From assembly GCF_023093535.1 (NCBI RefSeq), contig NZ_CP095757.1, positions 2,728,001 through 2,792,000 of the forward strand: a stretch of DNA of 64,000 nucleotides. The letters are read 5' to 3'. The stretch comes from Halovivax limisalsi (lineage in GTDB: Archaea; Halobacteriota; Halobacteria; Halobacteriales; Natrialbaceae). The stretch's first letter is position 1; each line of letters starts with the position of its first letter. The position numbers and the translations under genes were made by a program. Of the stretch, positions 43,468 through 50,264 are shown piece after piece. Under the pieces are notes generated by a model that saw nothing but the letters and a program-made list of their open reading frames with translations, did not search any database and was not told the origin of the DNA.

Positions 43468-43596
43468 ATCACCGAGGCGGCCCTTACAGATGAACCGACG
43501 TCACGTTCGCCACGGAAGTCAGCCGGATCGACGCCACGATTGGGACGGTCGCGATTCGCCGATCGGCTCGCGCGACGGATCGGCGAGAGGTGGCGG

Positions 43597-44223
43597 ATGA
43601 GCCGCCCCTACGCCTACGGCGTCGTCGATATCGACGAGACGATCGAGCGCTCCGTCGACGGCGTCGGCGACGGGGATCGCGTCTACCCGATCGACAACGG
43701 GGCCATCGCGGCGCTCGTCTCCGACATCGAGACGGCCGAACCGGATCGGTCCGACGAGAACGTTCGCCGCCACGACGAGGTGCTTCGGGCGCTGATGACC
43801 GCCGACGGCGGCCGGACCGTCGTACCGATGCGCTACGGGATGGTCTTCCGGGACGCGGAGACGGTGCGGAACGTCCTCGACGGAGCCGCGTCGGCGTTCA
43901 GGGCGTCGCTCGCGGAGATCGAGGGGGCGGAAGAACTCGGCGTCTCGGTGGTTCGCCCGCCGGAGGGGCCGGTCGACGACGAAGCGATCCGGAGCACCGT
44001 CTCCGACGAACTGGACGGCCTCGCCCGCGACGTCGCGGAGAACGGGCTGTTCAGCGACCGACTGGTTCTCAATCGATCGTATCTCGTCGCGCGCGACGAG
44101 CGAGGCGAGTTCGACGAAGCGGTCGGCCGGGTCGAGGACCGCCACGAGGGCGTCATCGTGCGCTACACCGGCCCCTACGCGCCGTACAGCTTCGTCGACG
44201 TGAAAATCGGAGCGCAGGCATGA
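43597..44223 (+). CDS. gvpF: Gas vesicle protein GvpF
   Basis: 208 residues starting MSRPYAYGVVDIDETIERSV. It is a GvpL/GvpF-family protein, with the N-terminal ferredoxin-like half (NGAIAALVSDIETAEPD, RRHDEVLRALMTADGGRTVV, PMRYGMVFRD) and the C-terminal closing GPYAPYSFVDVKIG. GvpF contacts GvpA and acts in vesicle nucleation. The ATG is preceded by GAGAGGTGG, a Shine-Dalgarno-like stretch. It is the first gene of the right-hand operon and overlaps gvpG by 4 bp (ATGA). Confidence 0.95.
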   Translation: MSRPYAYGVVDIDETIERSVDGVGDGDRVYPIDNGAIAALVSDIETAEPDRSDENVRRHDEVLRALMTADGGRTVVPMRYGMVFRDAETVRNVLDGAASAFRASLAEIEGAEELGVSVVRPPEGPVDDEAIRSTVSDELDGLARDVAENGLFSDRLVLNRSYLVARDERGEFDEAVGRVEDRHEGVIVRYTGPYAPYSFVDVKIGAQA

Positions 44224-44474
44224 TCGTCGTCGACGACCTCCTGTTCCGGCCGATCGTCAGCATCGCCAACGCGTTGCACGCGACCGCGTTGAACGAACTG
44301 TACGACGTCGAGGAGATCCAGGACGAGCTGTCGGAAAATCGGCTGCTCTACGAGCTCGGCGAACGGTCGGAGGAGGAGTACGAACGCAGGCGGGAGGAAC
44401 TGGAAGCGGAACTCGAGGCCGCCCGCGAAGTCAGGGAGTGGATTTCGGGCGGCCGCGTGGAGGTGAAGACGTGA
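44220..44474 (+). CDS. gvpG: Gas vesicle protein GvpG
   Basis: 84 residues starting MIVVDDLLFRPIVSIANALH. The family pattern is a short N-terminal hydrophobic helix followed by a long charged coiled-coil (DELSENRLLYELGERSEEEY, then RRREELEAELEAAREV). GvpG is one of the accessory assembly proteins indispensable for vesicles. Both ends overlap neighbours: ATGA with gvpF and TGATG with the next small frame. Confidence 0.93.
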   Translation: MIVVDDLLFRPIVSIANALHATALNELYDVEEIQDELSENRLLYELGERSEEEYERRREELEAELEAAREVREWISGGRVEVKT

Positions 44475-44650
44475 TGGCAATCGCCTCGCTCTGCGATTCG
44501 TCGGCGGCCGACGATCGTGGCGCGTTGCGAGCGACCGACGACCGAGGCGTATTGCCGGTCGCTGCCGACCGAATCGAGATGGCGACGACCGGCCGGGCTG
44601 ACGCTCACCGGCCAAGACCACCGCGATCGATCGAGGAACGAGACCAATGA
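44474..44650 (+). CDS. Possible 58-residue gas-vesicle-cluster protein, no known family
   Basis: The frame starts at ATG 44474, sharing bases with the gvpG stop (TGATG), and ends at TGA 44650, sharing bases with the next start (ATGA). It reads MAIASLCDSSAADDRGALRA and continues basic (RPRPPRSIEERDQ). The junction geometry is exactly that of every other gene in this operon, which argues for translation. Against it, about a third of its third codon positions are A or T, more than its neighbours, and no family is recognised. It might instead be spacer left after loss of gvpH or gvpI. Confidence 0.4.
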   Translation: MAIASLCDSSAADDRGALRATDDRGVLPVAADRIEMATTGRADAHRPRPPRSIEERDQ

Positions 44651-45438
44651 CGGACGACAGCACGGACACCGACGAATCGGCGGTCGAATCACTCGCCGCG
44701 GCCGTCAGCGGCGACGACTCGAACGAGGACGGCTCGCTGGGCGACGACGTCGGGGCGGTCGTGACCATGCTGCAGGAGGCGGAGGAAATCATCGACGCGA
44801 TCGACGTCTCGGAGCTTCCCGAAGCGGTCGACGCCGATCAGGTCCGCGAGGCCATCGAAGTCGGCGAGGTGCCCGACGCGCTCCGGGACGACGAGAACGC
44901 CGTGGTCGTCAAACTCAGACGGGTGATCCGGGCGATCGATCTCGGCCAGACGCTCGCATCGATGGACGTCACCGACGTCTGGGAGTCCACGCGCTCGATC
45001 GACGACGCGACGGACGAGCTCGACGACTCGGACGGCGACCTCACCGACGCCGATCTCGACCGGGCGATGGACGTCGCCGCTGAGGAGCTGAAAGAGGGCG
45101 TCGACGTCCGGAGCGGCGACATGGCCGCGTATCAGGCGGTGATCCAGCAGCGGGCCATGGAGGGCGTCGACGCCTTCCGCGAGGCGCTCCTGCGAACGCA
45201 CGGTCAGTTCGAGCGAATCGTGGAGGCGAACCGCGAGCGGATGCGCCAGCGGGATCGCCAACCCAGCTCCCGGAATCCGACGGCCGTCTCGACGATCCCC
45301 TCGGGTCGATCCGACGTTTCGTCGGTCCCCAACTACGCCACGATGCCCCGACCCGTTCGCCACTCCGACGCGCCGACGCGGACGCACATCTACGGCGATC
45401 GGTTCAGACGGGAGCGCGAGAAACGGGGGTACGACTAA
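44647..45438 (+). CDS. Gas-vesicle-operon protein of unknown family (in the gvpH-gvpI position)
   Basis: 263 residues starting MTDDSTDTDESAVESLAAAV. An acidic helical first half contains two similar segments (EEIIDAIDVSELPEAVDADQ and VREAIEVGEVPDALRD). A central region follows (AVVVKLRRVIRAIDLGQTLASMDVTDVWEST). A helix holds AYQAVIQQRAMEGVDAFREA. The tail is basic, Ser/Pro/Arg-rich (PSSRNPTAVSTIPSGRSD ... HIYGDRFRREREKRGYD). It is not the Hsp20-like GvpH, though the basic tail recalls GvpI. It overlaps both neighbours, so co-translation is likely. Its function is inferred only from position. Confidence 0.75.
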   Translation: MTDDSTDTDESAVESLAAAVSGDDSNEDGSLGDDVGAVVTMLQEAEEIIDAIDVSELPEAVDADQVREAIEVGEVPDALRDDENAVVVKLRRVIRAIDLGQTLASMDVTDVWESTRSIDDATDELDDSDGDLTDADLDRAMDVAAEELKEGVDVRSGDMAAYQAVIQQRAMEGVDAFREALLRTHGQFERIVEANRERMRQRDRQPSSRNPTAVSTIPSGRSDVSSVPNYATMPRPVRHSDAPTRTHIYGDRFRREREKRGYD

Positions 45439-45914
45439 TGGGCGACTTTCAGCCCAGTCGGCAGCAAGCCGACCTGGCCGACGTCCTCGAACTCCTGCTG
45501 GAGAAGGGGATCGTGATCAACGCCGACATCGCCGTCTCGATCGGCGACACGCAACTGCTCGGCGTCCAACTGCGCGCGGCCATCGCCTCGTTCGAGACGG
45601 CGGCGAAGTACGGGCTCGCCTTCCCGGAGGGAACCGACGTGGAGCGCCTCGCCGCCGCGGTCGACGAGCCCGAACTGGCCGAGGGCGATCGACCAAACAT
45701 CCCCGTCGACGCGACTCGCGGGGTGAACGTGACGCCCGGCGGGCACGCCGAACCGGCAGAGGAAGCCGCCGAAACGTCCGAGAGCGCCGACGACGGCGAT
45801 CTCCCCCGCGACGAGCAGTCGGCGCGCCTCGACGAGTTCGACGAGATTGCGGTCGCGGAGCGAGACGAGGGTGGAGCCGCCGACGACGAGCCCTCCGCGG
45901 AGGGCGAGGAATGA
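45438..45914 (+). CDS. gvpJ: Gas vesicle protein GvpJ (GvpA paralogue)
   Basis: 158 residues. The GvpA-like core is at residues about 10-65 (ADLADVLELLLEKGIVINAD, then IAVSIGDTQLLGVQLRAAIA and SFETAAKYGL), with an acidic tail of about 90 residues that makes it longer than the usual 100-115. GvpJ is a minor shell or tip protein required for assembly. The start shares bases with the preceding stop (TAATG) and the end overlaps gvpK by 4 bp. Confidence 0.95.
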   Translation: MGDFQPSRQQADLADVLELLLEKGIVINADIAVSIGDTQLLGVQLRAAIASFETAAKYGLAFPEGTDVERLAAAVDEPELAEGDRPNIPVDATRGVNVTPGGHAEPAEEAAETSESADDGDLPRDEQSARLDEFDEIAVAERDEGGAADDEPSAEGEE

Positions 45915-46270
45915 CGACGATCGACGTCGACGGCGAGTCGGCAGCCGACGGCCTCCTGACGCTCGTCGTGGCCGTCGTCGAGATACTGGTCGACGCGCTC
46001 GAGCGCGAGGCGATCAGGCGGATGGAGTCCGGCCGCCTCACCGACGAGGAAGTCGACCGGCTCGGCCGCCAGCTCGCCGCGATCGACGAACAGCTCGAGG
46101 CGATCAAAGGCGACCAGGAGATCACCGAGGACGTCGCGGACCTCCGCGGCGAACTCGACGGCATCGTTCGAAACGCCGTCGAGCGGCTGGAAGAAGGGGC
46201 AGCGGCCGAGCGACGCGAGGCCGAAACCGATCACCCCGCGGACCGATTCACGGGAGGTGAATTTCCGTGA
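45911..46270 (+). CDS. gvpK: Gas vesicle protein GvpK
   Basis: 119 residues starting MTTIDVDGESAADGLLTLVV. The conserved GvpK helix is GLLTLVVAVVEILVDALERE followed by AIRRMESGRLTDEEVDRLGR and a coiled-coil QLAAIDEQLEAIKGDQ. It is one of the essential accessory proteins. It overlaps gvpJ (ATGA) and gvpL (GTGA). Confidence 0.95.
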   Translation: MTTIDVDGESAADGLLTLVVAVVEILVDALEREAIRRMESGRLTDEEVDRLGRQLAAIDEQLEAIKGDQEITEDVADLRGELDGIVRNAVERLEEGAAAERREAETDHPADRFTGGEFP

Positions 46271-47208
46271 GCAATCGGGCGGAGACTCCCGCGGCCGAGG
46301 GGACGACCCCGGATCTCTCCGACGGCCGGTACCTCTACTGCGTCGTGGGGCTCGGTTGCGCCGACGAGGCGCCCACGCTCGAAACGGACGGCGTCGACGA
46401 CGAGCCCGTCTCGGTACTCGCGGCCGCGGGTGAGCGGGCGGACGGGGATCCGGCCGGCCCGGAGCAAATTGCTGCCGTCGTCCACGACTGTGCGGAACTG
46501 TACGACGCCGCGGATCCGCGGCTCGTCAAGCGGTGGCTCGTCCAGCACCAGCGCGTCGTCGACGCGGCCACGGAGCGTTTCGGCACGCCGATTCCGTTCC
46601 AGTTCGACACGATCCTGCGCGGTGGCGACGAGGGCGTCCGGGAGTGGTTACGGTCCGAGCGGGAGACGCTTCGGGACGCGCTCGAGGCGCTCGCTGGAAC
46701 CCATGAGTACCGGATCGACGTCGTGCGAACCGATCCGATCCCGGAATCGGCGATCGTAGACGGCGACGACGACCTTCAGGCGCTTCAGACGAAGATCGAC
46801 GACGCCAGCGAGGGGCGTGCGCACCTCCTCGAGAAGCAGTTCGAGCAACGACTCGCTAAGCGCCGTCGGGAACGGGGTCGCGCCCTCGCGGCCGACGTGG
46901 AGGCGGGCATCGACGAGTTCGTCGAGGCGGTACAACCGCTCGAGCCGTCGCCGTCGATCTCCCTCGAAGGCCTGGAGGGGGCAAGCTCCGGGCCGGACGA
47001 GGCGGGAGACGATACCGGCGACTCGGGCCCCGATACCGGCGAACCGGTCTGTCGCTTCGCCGTCCTCGCCACGGACGAGGGCGTCGACGACCTGGGATCG
47101 TACCTCGACACGGTCGCCGACCGGGACGGCATCACGGTCCGGTTCACCGGCCCCTGGCCACCGTACTCGTTCGTCCCCTCGCTCGGATCGGAGGAGGGGG
47201 TGACCTAG
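46267..47208 (+). CDS. gvpL: Gas vesicle protein GvpL
   Basis: 313 residues from a GTG overlapping the gvpK stop (GTGA). GvpL/GvpF family: N-terminal RYLYCVVGLG, central KRWLVQHQRVVDAATERFGT and PIPFQFDTILRGGDEGVREWL, coiled-coil EKQFEQRLAKRRRERGRALA, and family-typical end VRFTGPWPPYSFVPSL, the same closure as in GvpF. An acidic insert (GPDEAGDDTGDSGPDTGEP) lies before the last strand. GvpL binds many accessory Gvp proteins and is thought to be the assembly platform. Confidence 0.95.
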   Translation: MSNRAETPAAEGTTPDLSDGRYLYCVVGLGCADEAPTLETDGVDDEPVSVLAAAGERADGDPAGPEQIAAVVHDCAELYDAADPRLVKRWLVQHQRVVDAATERFGTPIPFQFDTILRGGDEGVREWLRSERETLRDALEALAGTHEYRIDVVRTDPIPESAIVDGDDDLQALQTKIDDASEGRAHLLEKQFEQRLAKRRRERGRALAADVEAGIDEFVEAVQPLEPSPSISLEGLEGASSGPDEAGDDTGDSGPDTGEPVCRFAVLATDEGVDDLGSYLDTVADRDGITVRFTGPWPPYSFVPSLGSEEGVT

Positions 47209-47212
47209 CGCC

Positions 47213-47539
47213 GTGGAGCCGACGAGCGACGACGCCCTGGTCGATCTCGTCGACGTGCTGTTGCGAGACGGGGCCGTTCTCAGGGCCGACGTGATCGTCA
47301 CCGTCGCGGACGTCCCGCTGGTGGGCATCAGTCTGTCCGCGGCAATCGCCGGGATGGAGACGATGAACGAGTACGGGCTGTTCGAGGAGTGGGACGGCTC
47401 GAAGCGGGCGAGGGTCGTCGCGAGGCGTCAGTACACGGACAACGGGCGGCCACGCCACCAGAGAAGGCAACAACGAAGGGAGAACGGGACGACGGGAGTC
47501 ATGCCGCGGCCGAGCGGCGCGGACCGGAACGAGACGTGA
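47213..47539 (+). CDS. gvpM: Gas vesicle protein GvpM (GvpA paralogue)
   Basis: 108 residues from a GTG 4 bp after the gvpL stop (reading MEPTSDDALVDLVDVLLRDG). The GvpA-like core (AVLRADVIVTVADVPLVGIS, then LSAAIAGMETMNEYGLF) covers residues about 9-60. It is followed by a basic tail (RQQRRENGTTG) longer than in the canonical GvpM of about 84 residues. It is the last gene of the cluster and is required for vesicle formation in Halobacterium. Confidence 0.93.
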   Translation: MEPTSDDALVDLVDVLLRDGAVLRADVIVTVADVPLVGISLSAAIAGMETMNEYGLFEEWDGSKRARVVARRQYTDNGRPRHQRRQQRRENGTTGVMPRPSGADRNET

Positions 47540-47591: not shown

Positions 47592-47804
47592 TCAGGCGTA
47601 CTTTGGTCGTTCCGTGGTCACCGTGATCTCGCCCGAGACCTCCACGTCGTTCTCGTTCGAGCGTTCGTAGGTCCCCGTCGCGTTACAGAGGGTGCACTCG
47701 TAGCGCTCGGAGATCTCGTTGATCACCTCCCCGTCCTCGAAGTAGACCCGGCTCCTGACGATCTGGAGGAACTGGGCGGTTTCGCAGTTCGTACACTCGA
47801 TCAT
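47592..47804 (-). CDS. Small zinc-ribbon protein
   Basis: 70 residues starting MIECTNCETAQFLQIVRSRV. Two CxxC pairs (residues 4-7 and 36-39, CTNC and CTLC) form a zinc ribbon. The middle is FEDGEVINEISERYECTLC and the C-terminus is a β-strand end (DVEVSGEITVTTERPKY). It is a soluble haloarchaeal family of unknown role, possibly RNA or protein binding. It converges on gvpM. Confidence 0.75.
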   Translation of the reverse strand: MIECTNCETAQFLQIVRSRVYFEDGEVINEISERYECTLCNATGTYERSNENDVEVSGEITVTTERPKYA

Positions 47805-48205
47805 GGCAGGATGGAGGCCGACTCGCTACGTAGTTATCCCCCGGGTACGCCCGCGCGGTCGGGCGAAAGGGGGCGATTACCGGCGACTCCGGAGCCCGCA
47901 GGAGGGTCCGATCCCGGTTCTGCCCGCGTCACACCGGTCCCAGCGCCGATCGACGGTCGCCCGTTACGCGGCGGGGCTATGGACCGCATACCGACGACAA
48001 ACGGTCGGCTACTCGCGCAGTCGGCGTGGCGGCGCTATCGGCTGGCGTGGAACGGAGACGAAACGGATCGATTCGGGTGAAATCGGGACGCGGTACGGTC
48101 GAGGAACCGAACGCGGTCGGCTGACCGAGAAGGGAGAGACGAGCGAGCGCGTCGGTTGGGGTCGGCTACGATCCGAGCGCAATCACCAGCCGACTCATAA
48201 CAATA
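47805..48205. other. Non-coding gap before the structured element
   Basis: These 400 bp lie between the small zinc-ribbon gene and the structured element. Several open frames cross it, but none has a start with a promoter or a recognisable protein. A frame with MDRIPTTNGRLLAQSAWRRY at 47979 is the best of them and is not convincing. No repeat, tRNA or rRNA was found. Confidence 0.4.
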
Positions 48206-48400
48206 GGGCGGGCCGGAATGAGACAGCGTGCGGGGCGGATGCCCCGCGTCGGGTGCGACCTCGGCTCCGCCCACCATGCGCCCACCGGCCCGCCAGGGGT
48301 CCGTACCCAGGTGCTCAAAGTGGACTCGCCCCCCGCTTCGAGTGCGCTCATGTCTCTCACGCCGGGGCGGGCACCAACCCGCCCATTCCCCGACCCGCCC
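48206..48400. ncRNA. Candidate structured RNA of about 195 nt, no known family
   Basis: The two ends pair over 11 bp with one mismatch (GGGCGGGCCGG at 48206-48216 with CCGACCCGCCC at 48390-48400). Inside, GAGACA (48220-48225) pairs with TGTCTC (48351-48356), and GCG (48226-48228) with CGC (48345-48347). Two perfect 7-bp hairpins are present: GCGGGGC-GGAT-GCCCCGC (48230-48247) and GGGCGGG-CACCAA-CCCGCCC (48365-48384). A smaller one is GGGT/ACCC (48297-48308). Nested closure of this kind suggests one compact RNA. The strand is unclear. The minus strand ends in TATTGTTAT after the terminal stem, terminator-like. It lacks RNase P and SRP RNA hallmarks. Confidence 0.45.
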
Positions 48401-48485: not shown

Positions 48486-50264
48486 ATGCGACTGGAGGAG
48501 TACTGGGGCGTCGGGCCGAAAACCCGCGCTCGACTCGTCGACGAACTCGGGGCCGAGCGGGCCAGCAGCGCCATCGAACGGGGTGACGTCCGCGCGCTGA
48601 CCGACGCCGGCCTCACGCGCGGGCGCGCAACACACATTCTCCGTCGAGCCACGGGCGGCGCCGGCATGGAGACGCTCGCCACGCCGGACGCCCGCGAAGC
48701 GTACAAGGACGTTCTCGAAGTCGTCGTCGAACACGCCCTCACCCAGCGCGCCGCCGACCGGATCCGGGTTCTCACACCGCTTTCGACCCGCGAGGCGATG
48801 GCGGGGCGCCTCGACGACGTCTTCGACGCGGTCGAGATCTGGGACGGGCTGGACGAGGCCGAGCAGGCCGAGATCTGCGAGGCCTACGAGCGCTACGACG
48901 CGAACGACGGGACGGAGAAGGCCGCGGTCGAGGCGGCGCTCGAACTGCGCGAACTCGACCACGCAGCGGGCCCGTTCGAACCGCTCGCGTCCCTCGACGC
49001 CGACACCCTCGAAACCGCCGCCGACGCCCTCGGCGCGGTCGACGGCCACCGACTGGGGACCGGCGCCGACGACGAGCTCGATCGACTGCGCTCGGCCCTC
49101 GGCGCGGTCGAGGATCTGGACGCCAGCGCGACGGAGCTGGTCGAAGAACTGCGGTCCGAGGGCGTCCACGACGTCGACGGCTTTCGCGACGCGTTCGAGG
49201 ATCGCATCCTCTCGGAGACCGACGTCACGATCGAGCAAGTGCGCGAGGCGATGCCCCGCGACGCGACGGACGCCGGCGACTTCGTCGCGGAAACGCTTCG
49301 CTCGCTGCGGATCGACCTCCAGGAACGCGTCGACGAGCGCGAGGAGCGAATCGGCGCCGAGTTGCGAGCGACGATCGAGGAATCGCGCGACGCGATCGAT
49401 CGGGCCGTCGAAATCGTCGACGAAATCGCCCTCGCGCTCTCGCTCGCCCGCTTCGCGATCGCGTACGACTGTACGCGCCCGACGTTCGCCGACGCCGACG
49501 CGCCGGCCGTCTCGGTCGTCGACGCGAGAAACCTCCGGCTGGCGGCGGCTGACGGGTCCGTCCAGCCGATAACGTACGCGCTCGGCGCTCACGACGTCGA
49601 CTCCGGACCCGAGACCGCCGGGACACCCGGGCAGGAACGCGTCTCGGTGCTCACCGGGGCCAACAGCGGCGGGAAGACGACGCTGCTGGAGACCCTGTGT
49701 CAGATCCACGTCCTGGCCAGCATGGGCCTGCCGGTCCCCGCCGAGCGCGCGACGGTGACGCTCGTCGACGCCATCGTCTTTCACCGCCGCCACGCCAGCT
49801 TCAACGCGGGCGTGCTCGAGTCCACGCTGCAGTCGATCGTCCCGCCGCTGTCGGACGGCGGGCGGACCCTGATGCTCGTCGACGAGTTCGAGGCCATCAC
49901 CGAACCGGGGAGCGCGGCCGACCTGCTCCACGGGCTCGTCAGGCTCACAGTCGACCGCGACGCACTGGGCGTCTTCGTCACCCACCTCGCGGAGGACCTC
50001 GAACCGCTCCCCGAGGCCGCCCGCGTCGACGGCATCTTCGCGGAGGGACTGAATCCCGACCTCGAGTTACGCGTCGATTACCAGCCCCGGTTCGACACGA
50101 TCGGGCGCTCGACGCCCGAGTTCATCGTCTCCCGCCTCGTCGCGAACGCCGGGGGCCGGAGCGAGCGCGCCGGCTTCGAGACGCTGGCGGAGGCCGTCGG
50201 GCGAGAGGTCGTCCAGCGAACCCTGGCCGACGCGAAGTGGCACGACGCCGCGGAAGGCGATTGA
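48486..50264 (+). CDS. MutS-family ATPase, archaeal MutS-like (HhH plus MutS core/ATPase)
   Basis: 592 residues starting MRLEEYWGVGPKTRARLVDE. The N-terminus carries a helix-hairpin-helix (GVGPKTRARL, then ALTDAGLTRGRATHIL). The middle is a long helical MutS lever (DEREERIGAELRATIEESRD). The ABC-type ATPase has Walker A TGANSGGKTT near residue 390, signature-like segment HASFNAGVLESTLQSI and Walker B TLMLVDEFEAIT. The mismatch-recognition domain is absent, and no C-terminal Smr nuclease is seen. It may act in recombination or branched-DNA processing. It follows the structured element by 85 bp. Confidence 0.9.
   Translation: MRLEEYWGVGPKTRARLVDELGAERASSAIERGDVRALTDAGLTRGRATHILRRATGGAGMETLATPDAREAYKDVLEVVVEHALTQRAADRIRVLTPLSTREAMAGRLDDVFDAVEIWDGLDEAEQAEICEAYERYDANDGTEKAAVEAALELRELDHAAGPFEPLASLDADTLETAADALGAVDGHRLGTGADDELDRLRSALGAVEDLDASATELVEELRSEGVHDVDGFRDAFEDRILSETDVTIEQVREAMPRDATDAGDFVAETLRSLRIDLQERVDEREERIGAELRATIEESRDAIDRAVEIVDEIALALSLARFAIAYDCTRPTFADADAPAVSVVDARNLRLAAADGSVQPITYALGAHDVDSGPETAGTPGQERVSVLTGANSGGKTTLLETLCQIHVLASMGLPVPAERATVTLVDAIVFHRRHASFNAGVLESTLQSIVPPLSDGGRTLMLVDEFEAITEPGSAADLLHGLVRLTVDRDALGVFVTHLAEDLEPLPEAARVDGIFAEGLNPDLELRVDYQPRFDTIGRSTPEFIVSRLVANAGGRSERAGFETLAEAVGREVVQRTLADAKWHDAAEGD

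Follow-up and report, generated by a model that had tools for sequence, protein, structure and literature searches.

A small RNA gene spread across the Natrialbaceae, with an invariant seed and a predicted antisense target at the start codon of a surface-protein gene

Does the GC-rich non-coding stretch upstream of a MutS-like gene in Halovivax limisalsi encode an RNA and, if so, what might that RNA do? The stretch lies in a 64,000-nucleotide segment of the genome (hereafter, the window), of which positions 48206–48400 had been described in an earlier note as a candidate structured RNA, maybe a new one. We used a 231-base query in blastn searches and found matches in 36 of 61 genomes, with E values of 6e-62 in the same genus (whose members include Halovivax asiaticus JCM 14624) to about 1e-13 in most family members; the best 30, all from the same family, were taken for comparison. 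When these 30 homologues were fetched and aligned in one orientation, a common block emerged that begins at 48229 and closes with the hairpin at 48384. Judged from such sequence comparisons, the stretch almost certainly holds a real, autonomous small-RNA gene that had not been catalogued before (Table 1). The idea of a structured non-coding RNA, maybe a new one, is supported, but its boundaries were wrong, the conserved block running from 48229/48230 to about 48385.

Table 1. Positions in the window of the small RNA gene, its parts and its neighbour.
Feature	Positions	Strand	Remarks
Promoter region	48145..48203	+	TATA-like element CATAACAA at 48196-48203
Small RNA gene	48229..48390	+	conserved block; probable start 48229/48230, probable 3' end ~48385; ~157 nt
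P1, 5' hairpin GCGGGGC[GGAU]GCCCCGC	48230..48247	+	paired in 98% of cells over 70 sequences; fold
P2, branched stem GGGUGCG.../...CGUACCC	48251..48308	+	covarying pairs; 3' half predicted to pair with DUF7282 mRNA in other genera
P3, stem-loop with nearly invariant loop GGACUCGCCCCC	48311..48345	+	paired in 97.5% of cells (helix 4); fold
Single-stranded invariant seed GCUCAUGUCUCUC	48346..48358	+	identical in 30/30 loci; mostly unpaired in prediction
Terminator-like hairpin GGGCGGG[CACCAA]CCCGCCC	48365..48384	+	covarying stem in alignment (helix 6); fold
MutS-like gene (MutS domain V)	48486..50264	+	Pfam MutS_V; downstream neighbour, outside the RNA unit

A covariance-model search detected the gene in 68 of the 74 Natrialbaceae genomes sampled, among them members of Natrinema, Natrialba, Natronorubrum, Natronococcus, Haloterrigena, Halopiger, Halobiforma and Halovivax, as a rule in one copy per genome. 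Two carriers, Natronorubrum bangense and Natrinema thermotolerans, have a copy on a large plasmid (L084 and L074; plasmid CP031304.1 316387-316539): the former carries the RNA both on its chromosome and on an 828-kb plasmid, and the latter has one copy on a 987-kb plasmid. Two Natrialbaceae genera lack the gene even in a permissive search. Outside the family there was no convincing covariance-model match, as the weak ones (best E 7e-5) had neither promoter nor seed, looked coding-like and were rejected as homologues. The RNA is not described in the open-access papers that we searched.

What drives the gene? An element of the CATAACAA type, with the pattern ATAAC(A/T)A, stands 32–33 nt upstream of the 5' hairpin in all 30 homologues, and further upstream of it the motifs CCTGT, CTAC and CCAA are clear in other genera and degenerate in the Halovivax window. 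The promoter pattern CTAC-N7-CAA-N7-CATAACAA also precedes a type I phosphodiesterase gene in about ten genomes (L166-L170, L173-L177, near 430-540) and a polysaccharide deacetylase lipoprotein gene in two (L171/L172), and these genes and the RNA may possibly form a small regulon. Most haloarchaeal mRNAs are leaderless. The phosphodiesterase ATG lies about 34 nt past the start of CATAACAA; if the mRNAs sharing the promoter are leaderless, this spacing and that of the RNA promoter would put the 5' end of the RNA at 48229/48230. The Haloferax RNA sRNA132 had suggested that the promoter might respond to phosphate, an idea that was dropped, since nothing was found in its favour.

For a structure test, 70 distinct RNAs were aligned by sequence only. 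The consensus structure has standard pairs in 93.5% of the cells against 35–49% when the partners are slid, a comparison favoured by the structure having been derived from the same alignment, and 12 pairs are changed on both sides where shuffles predict 7.1. The check for covariation that had been suggested was positive for P2 and the terminal hairpin, the stems overall being partly covarying. Folding the window sequence alone recovered P1, P2, P3 and the terminal hairpin. Two of these, P1 and the terminal hairpin, are the perfect 7-bp hairpins already pointed out in the earlier note, which are indeed present and conserved, and a third, the conserved stem-loop P3, had gone unnamed. The claim that the complementarity is far more ordered than chance was overstated: the fold z-score of the 195 nt of 48206-48400 is −2.3 on the plus strand (3 of 200 shuffles being as good) and −1.5 on the minus strand, and it is −1.15 for the transcript as re-delimited. 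Fold energy alone is weak evidence for an RNA; conservation is what exceeds chance by far.

Two further helices, the paired termini GGGCGGG (48206-48212) and CCCGCCC (48394-48400) and an inner GAGACA.../TGTCTC helix, exist in the sequence but are not conserved, as the 5' arm of each falls in promoter DNA, ahead of the probable start. The stretch that holds these arms is unrelated even between sister Halovivax species, and both helices were rejected as parts of the RNA because of this non-conserved location. Could the locus instead act at the DNA level, or encode a short protein? Open reading frames do cross the region mechanically, but indels between relatives shift every frame, the stems show compensatory pair changes, and the conserved block is bounded by a promoter and a terminator-like hairpin, all of which makes this explanation very improbable.

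Nor does the RNA belong to a catalogued family. In the suggested search of Rfam 15, no family exceeded its gathering threshold at the locus, both thresholds having been tried. Archaeal RNase P RNA (RF00373) and SRP RNA (RF01857) are likewise GC-rich and structured, but these sequence families do not match here and were rejected as identities of the locus; their true genes are elsewhere in the same genome (G000:C1:3830952-3831426 and G000:C1:1689593-1689904, respectively), which supports the earlier view that the RNA is neither.

The MutS-like gene raises another possibility, that the RNA acts in cis as a leader or attenuator, for instance of this downstream gene, whose start codon lies about 100 nt past the RNA on the same strand in the window. 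However, only Halovivax and a few others have the gene next to the RNA; in most relatives the two are not adjacent, and the special tie to the MutS-like gene that the earlier note had implied is not supported. The genes downstream vary by genus, often a convergent zinc-dependent dehydrogenase and otherwise unrelated genes on either strand, and the RNA itself closes with a terminator-like hairpin. Because the neighbours change between genera, the RNA is not a mutS leader, and a cis-acting leader or attenuator is largely refuted as an explanation. Fixed promoter spacing combined with changing neighbours points to an independent transcription unit with its own promoter. On one side of the RNA gene there is usually a gas-vesicle-type cluster and a gene for a 70-aa CxxC protein. 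In the window, GvpF/L and GvpA/J-like genes and the 70-aa CxxC protein gene occupy 43540-47539 and 47592-47804, and they are syntenic with the RNA across many Natrialbaceae genera.

What, then, is the function of the RNA? One of its parts is invariant, the 13-nt seed GCUCAUGUCUCUC between P3 and the terminal hairpin, identical in all 30 blastn loci although none was selected on it. The seed is retained in L178, in which an insert of about 80 nt parts it from P3, and in L179, whose P3 loop is lost or replaced. It is complementary to AUG AGC. Exact complements of the 13-mer and of an 11-mer are not enriched in the genomes relative to a reversed control, so that no target clearly shared by all genomes emerges for the invariant seed, and a universal perfect target was rejected on this ground. 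Two non-self matches to the 13-mer complement in Natrialbaceae coincide with the start codons of long genes, one encoding a subtilase in the Halovivax genome G002 and the other a DUF7282 surface protein in genome G009; such matches are not above the control number and alone mean little. The G002 gene encodes a secreted subtilase and begins with the full 13-nt seed complement (L129 1501-1513), making it a possible target in Halovivax.

The DUF7282 gene was picked solely for the 13-nt seed complement at its start codon in G009, and its orthologues were fetched afterwards. A part of the RNA other than the seed, the 3' half of P2 (GAUUGCGUGCGUUC within it), turned out to be complementary to the start region of these orthologues: GAUUGCGUGCGUUCGUG and CAUGAACGCACGCAAUC form 17 contiguous pairs including G-U, 14 of them in a row Watson-Crick, over target positions −1 to +16. 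This site of 14/17 pairs is present in G012, G021, G027 and G031 and in three Haloterrigena plasmid copies; other DUF7282 orthologues have it with wobbles or shorter runs, and in nine further Natrialbaceae records with plasmid-borne orthologues the same site or close variants occur in most. It was not found in three outgroup DUF7282 genes (Salinigranum, Halorussus). For background, 343 other gene starts sampled in G031 reach at most 11 consecutive Watson-Crick pairs when compared with the full-length RNA.

RNA and target also change in step. Of 15 genomes, 14 are concordant for GATTGC on the RNA side and GCAATC on the target side, 10 of them having both motifs and 4 (G009, G018, G023 and G028) neither; 1 is discordant. 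Where the P2 site is missing, the seed matches the DUF7282 start region over 13 nt in G009 and 12 nt in G018, and G023 combines an 11-nt seed match with a partial P2 match. In G032 the P2 segment is kept but the best DUF7282 match lacks the site, and in the RNA-less genomes G010 and G013 the DUF7282 gene starts differently, without it. Cognate P2 duplexes have better energies than permuted pairs (p = 0.0003, an optimistic value as related genomes are not independent); cognate seed duplexes are no better than permuted ones (p = 0.31). In about half of the genomes the duplex energy of the DUF7282 target ranks 2nd to 6th of 309 gene starts, and in the others far lower; this background includes one locus that overlaps the RNA itself and some that had been chosen for their seed motif. 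In the cleaner G031 sample two other gene starts equal the target's energy, one through a 19-bp G-U-rich run. A search of the G031 sample and the window for further target candidates gave nothing convincing. The site contains rare codons (AAT, 9.5% of Asn codons; GCA, 4.4% of Ala codons), early codons being generally richer in such codons. The DUF7282 mRNA itself apparently begins with a short leader, in which a small conserved hairpin, TGCCTTCACGGCA, immediately precedes the AUG (L205-L220, L254-L262), and such a leader is unusual among the mostly leaderless haloarchaea.

The conserved complementarity, like the gene, its promoter, its structure and its distribution, is established by computation. 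It exceeds background in relatives that have a DUF7282 orthologue; in Halovivax the pairing segment of P2 has diverged and no orthologous DUF7282 target, or other target with complementarity of this kind, was found. What is the mechanism of such an RNA? The best explanation, and probably the right one, is a trans-acting antisense regulator that pairs with the start regions of mRNAs. From its dedicated promoter, a transcript would be made that folds into P1, P2 and P3, exposes the 13-nt seed and closes with the terminator-like hairpin. In the DUF7282 mRNA of relatives, the AUG and the first five codons would be covered by the 3' half of P2 (GAUUGCGUGCGUUCGUG), for which the P2 stem would have to open, and pairing over the start codon should block initiation. 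In two genera the invariant seed would fit the same start codon in place of P2, and the Halovivax RNA may keep this mode of action by the seed alone, on another target. Transcription, pairing in vivo and repression as the direction of regulation are what we infer.

Alternatively, the RNA could be structural or protein-binding, either an RNP scaffold or a protein-sequestering RNA, with the seed and P3 loop as protein sites and the DUF7282 complementarity as an ancestral coincidence. Indeed, two elements of the GC-rich scaffold hardly vary and are largely unpaired, seed complements are not enriched in the genomes, and the gene is near-universal in the family, yet the DUF7282 target is missing from several genomes that bear it. 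An inherited ancestral complementarity could also persist through coding and RNA constraints, which speaks against the antisense reading. This explanation has to account for 14–17 bp of start-codon complementarity, with co-divergence, in a gene chosen on other grounds, and for the loss of the P3 loop in one genome (L179), and we regard it as unlikely, though worth keeping in mind. Under the antisense reading, a tentative extension, which we hold to be possible rather than probable, is that two alternative start-codon-pairing sites exchange roles over evolutionary time while the surface-protein target stays the same, a genome that carries both sites being an intermediate, and that the seed may address several mRNAs beginning with AUG AGC.

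How does this RNA compare with known archaeal sRNAs? Haloferax volcanii sRNA132 is a phosphate-starvation sRNA of 138 nt, intergenic, with its own basal promoter and a proposed antisense action on mRNAs; its homologues are reported in Haloferax only, and the sites predicted for it fall within ORFs or 3' UTRs (PMC6560208). Both are thus haloarchaeal intergenic sRNA genes with their own promoter and a proposed antisense action, but the Natrialbaceae RNA is family-wide and has a predicted start-codon site; the two are set apart by description. Further archaeal sRNAs are sRNA162 and sRNA154 of Methanosarcina mazei, of which sRNA162 acts via two distinct domains (PMC3510493); sRNA targets in methanogens are located near translation starts. 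These RNAs belong to a different, methanogen lineage, and what has been shown by experiment for them is predicted for the Natrialbaceae RNA.

Evolutionary support for a target exists for few archaeal sRNAs, and sRNA132, the haloarchaeal one studied in detail, is limited to one genus. The sRNA described here is Natrialbaceae-wide; its promoter is defined, its structure conserved and its seed invariant, and its predicted target co-varies with it. It offers a directly testable case of how antisense RNA might act where most mRNAs lack leaders, and of how pairs of RNA and target may be rewired.
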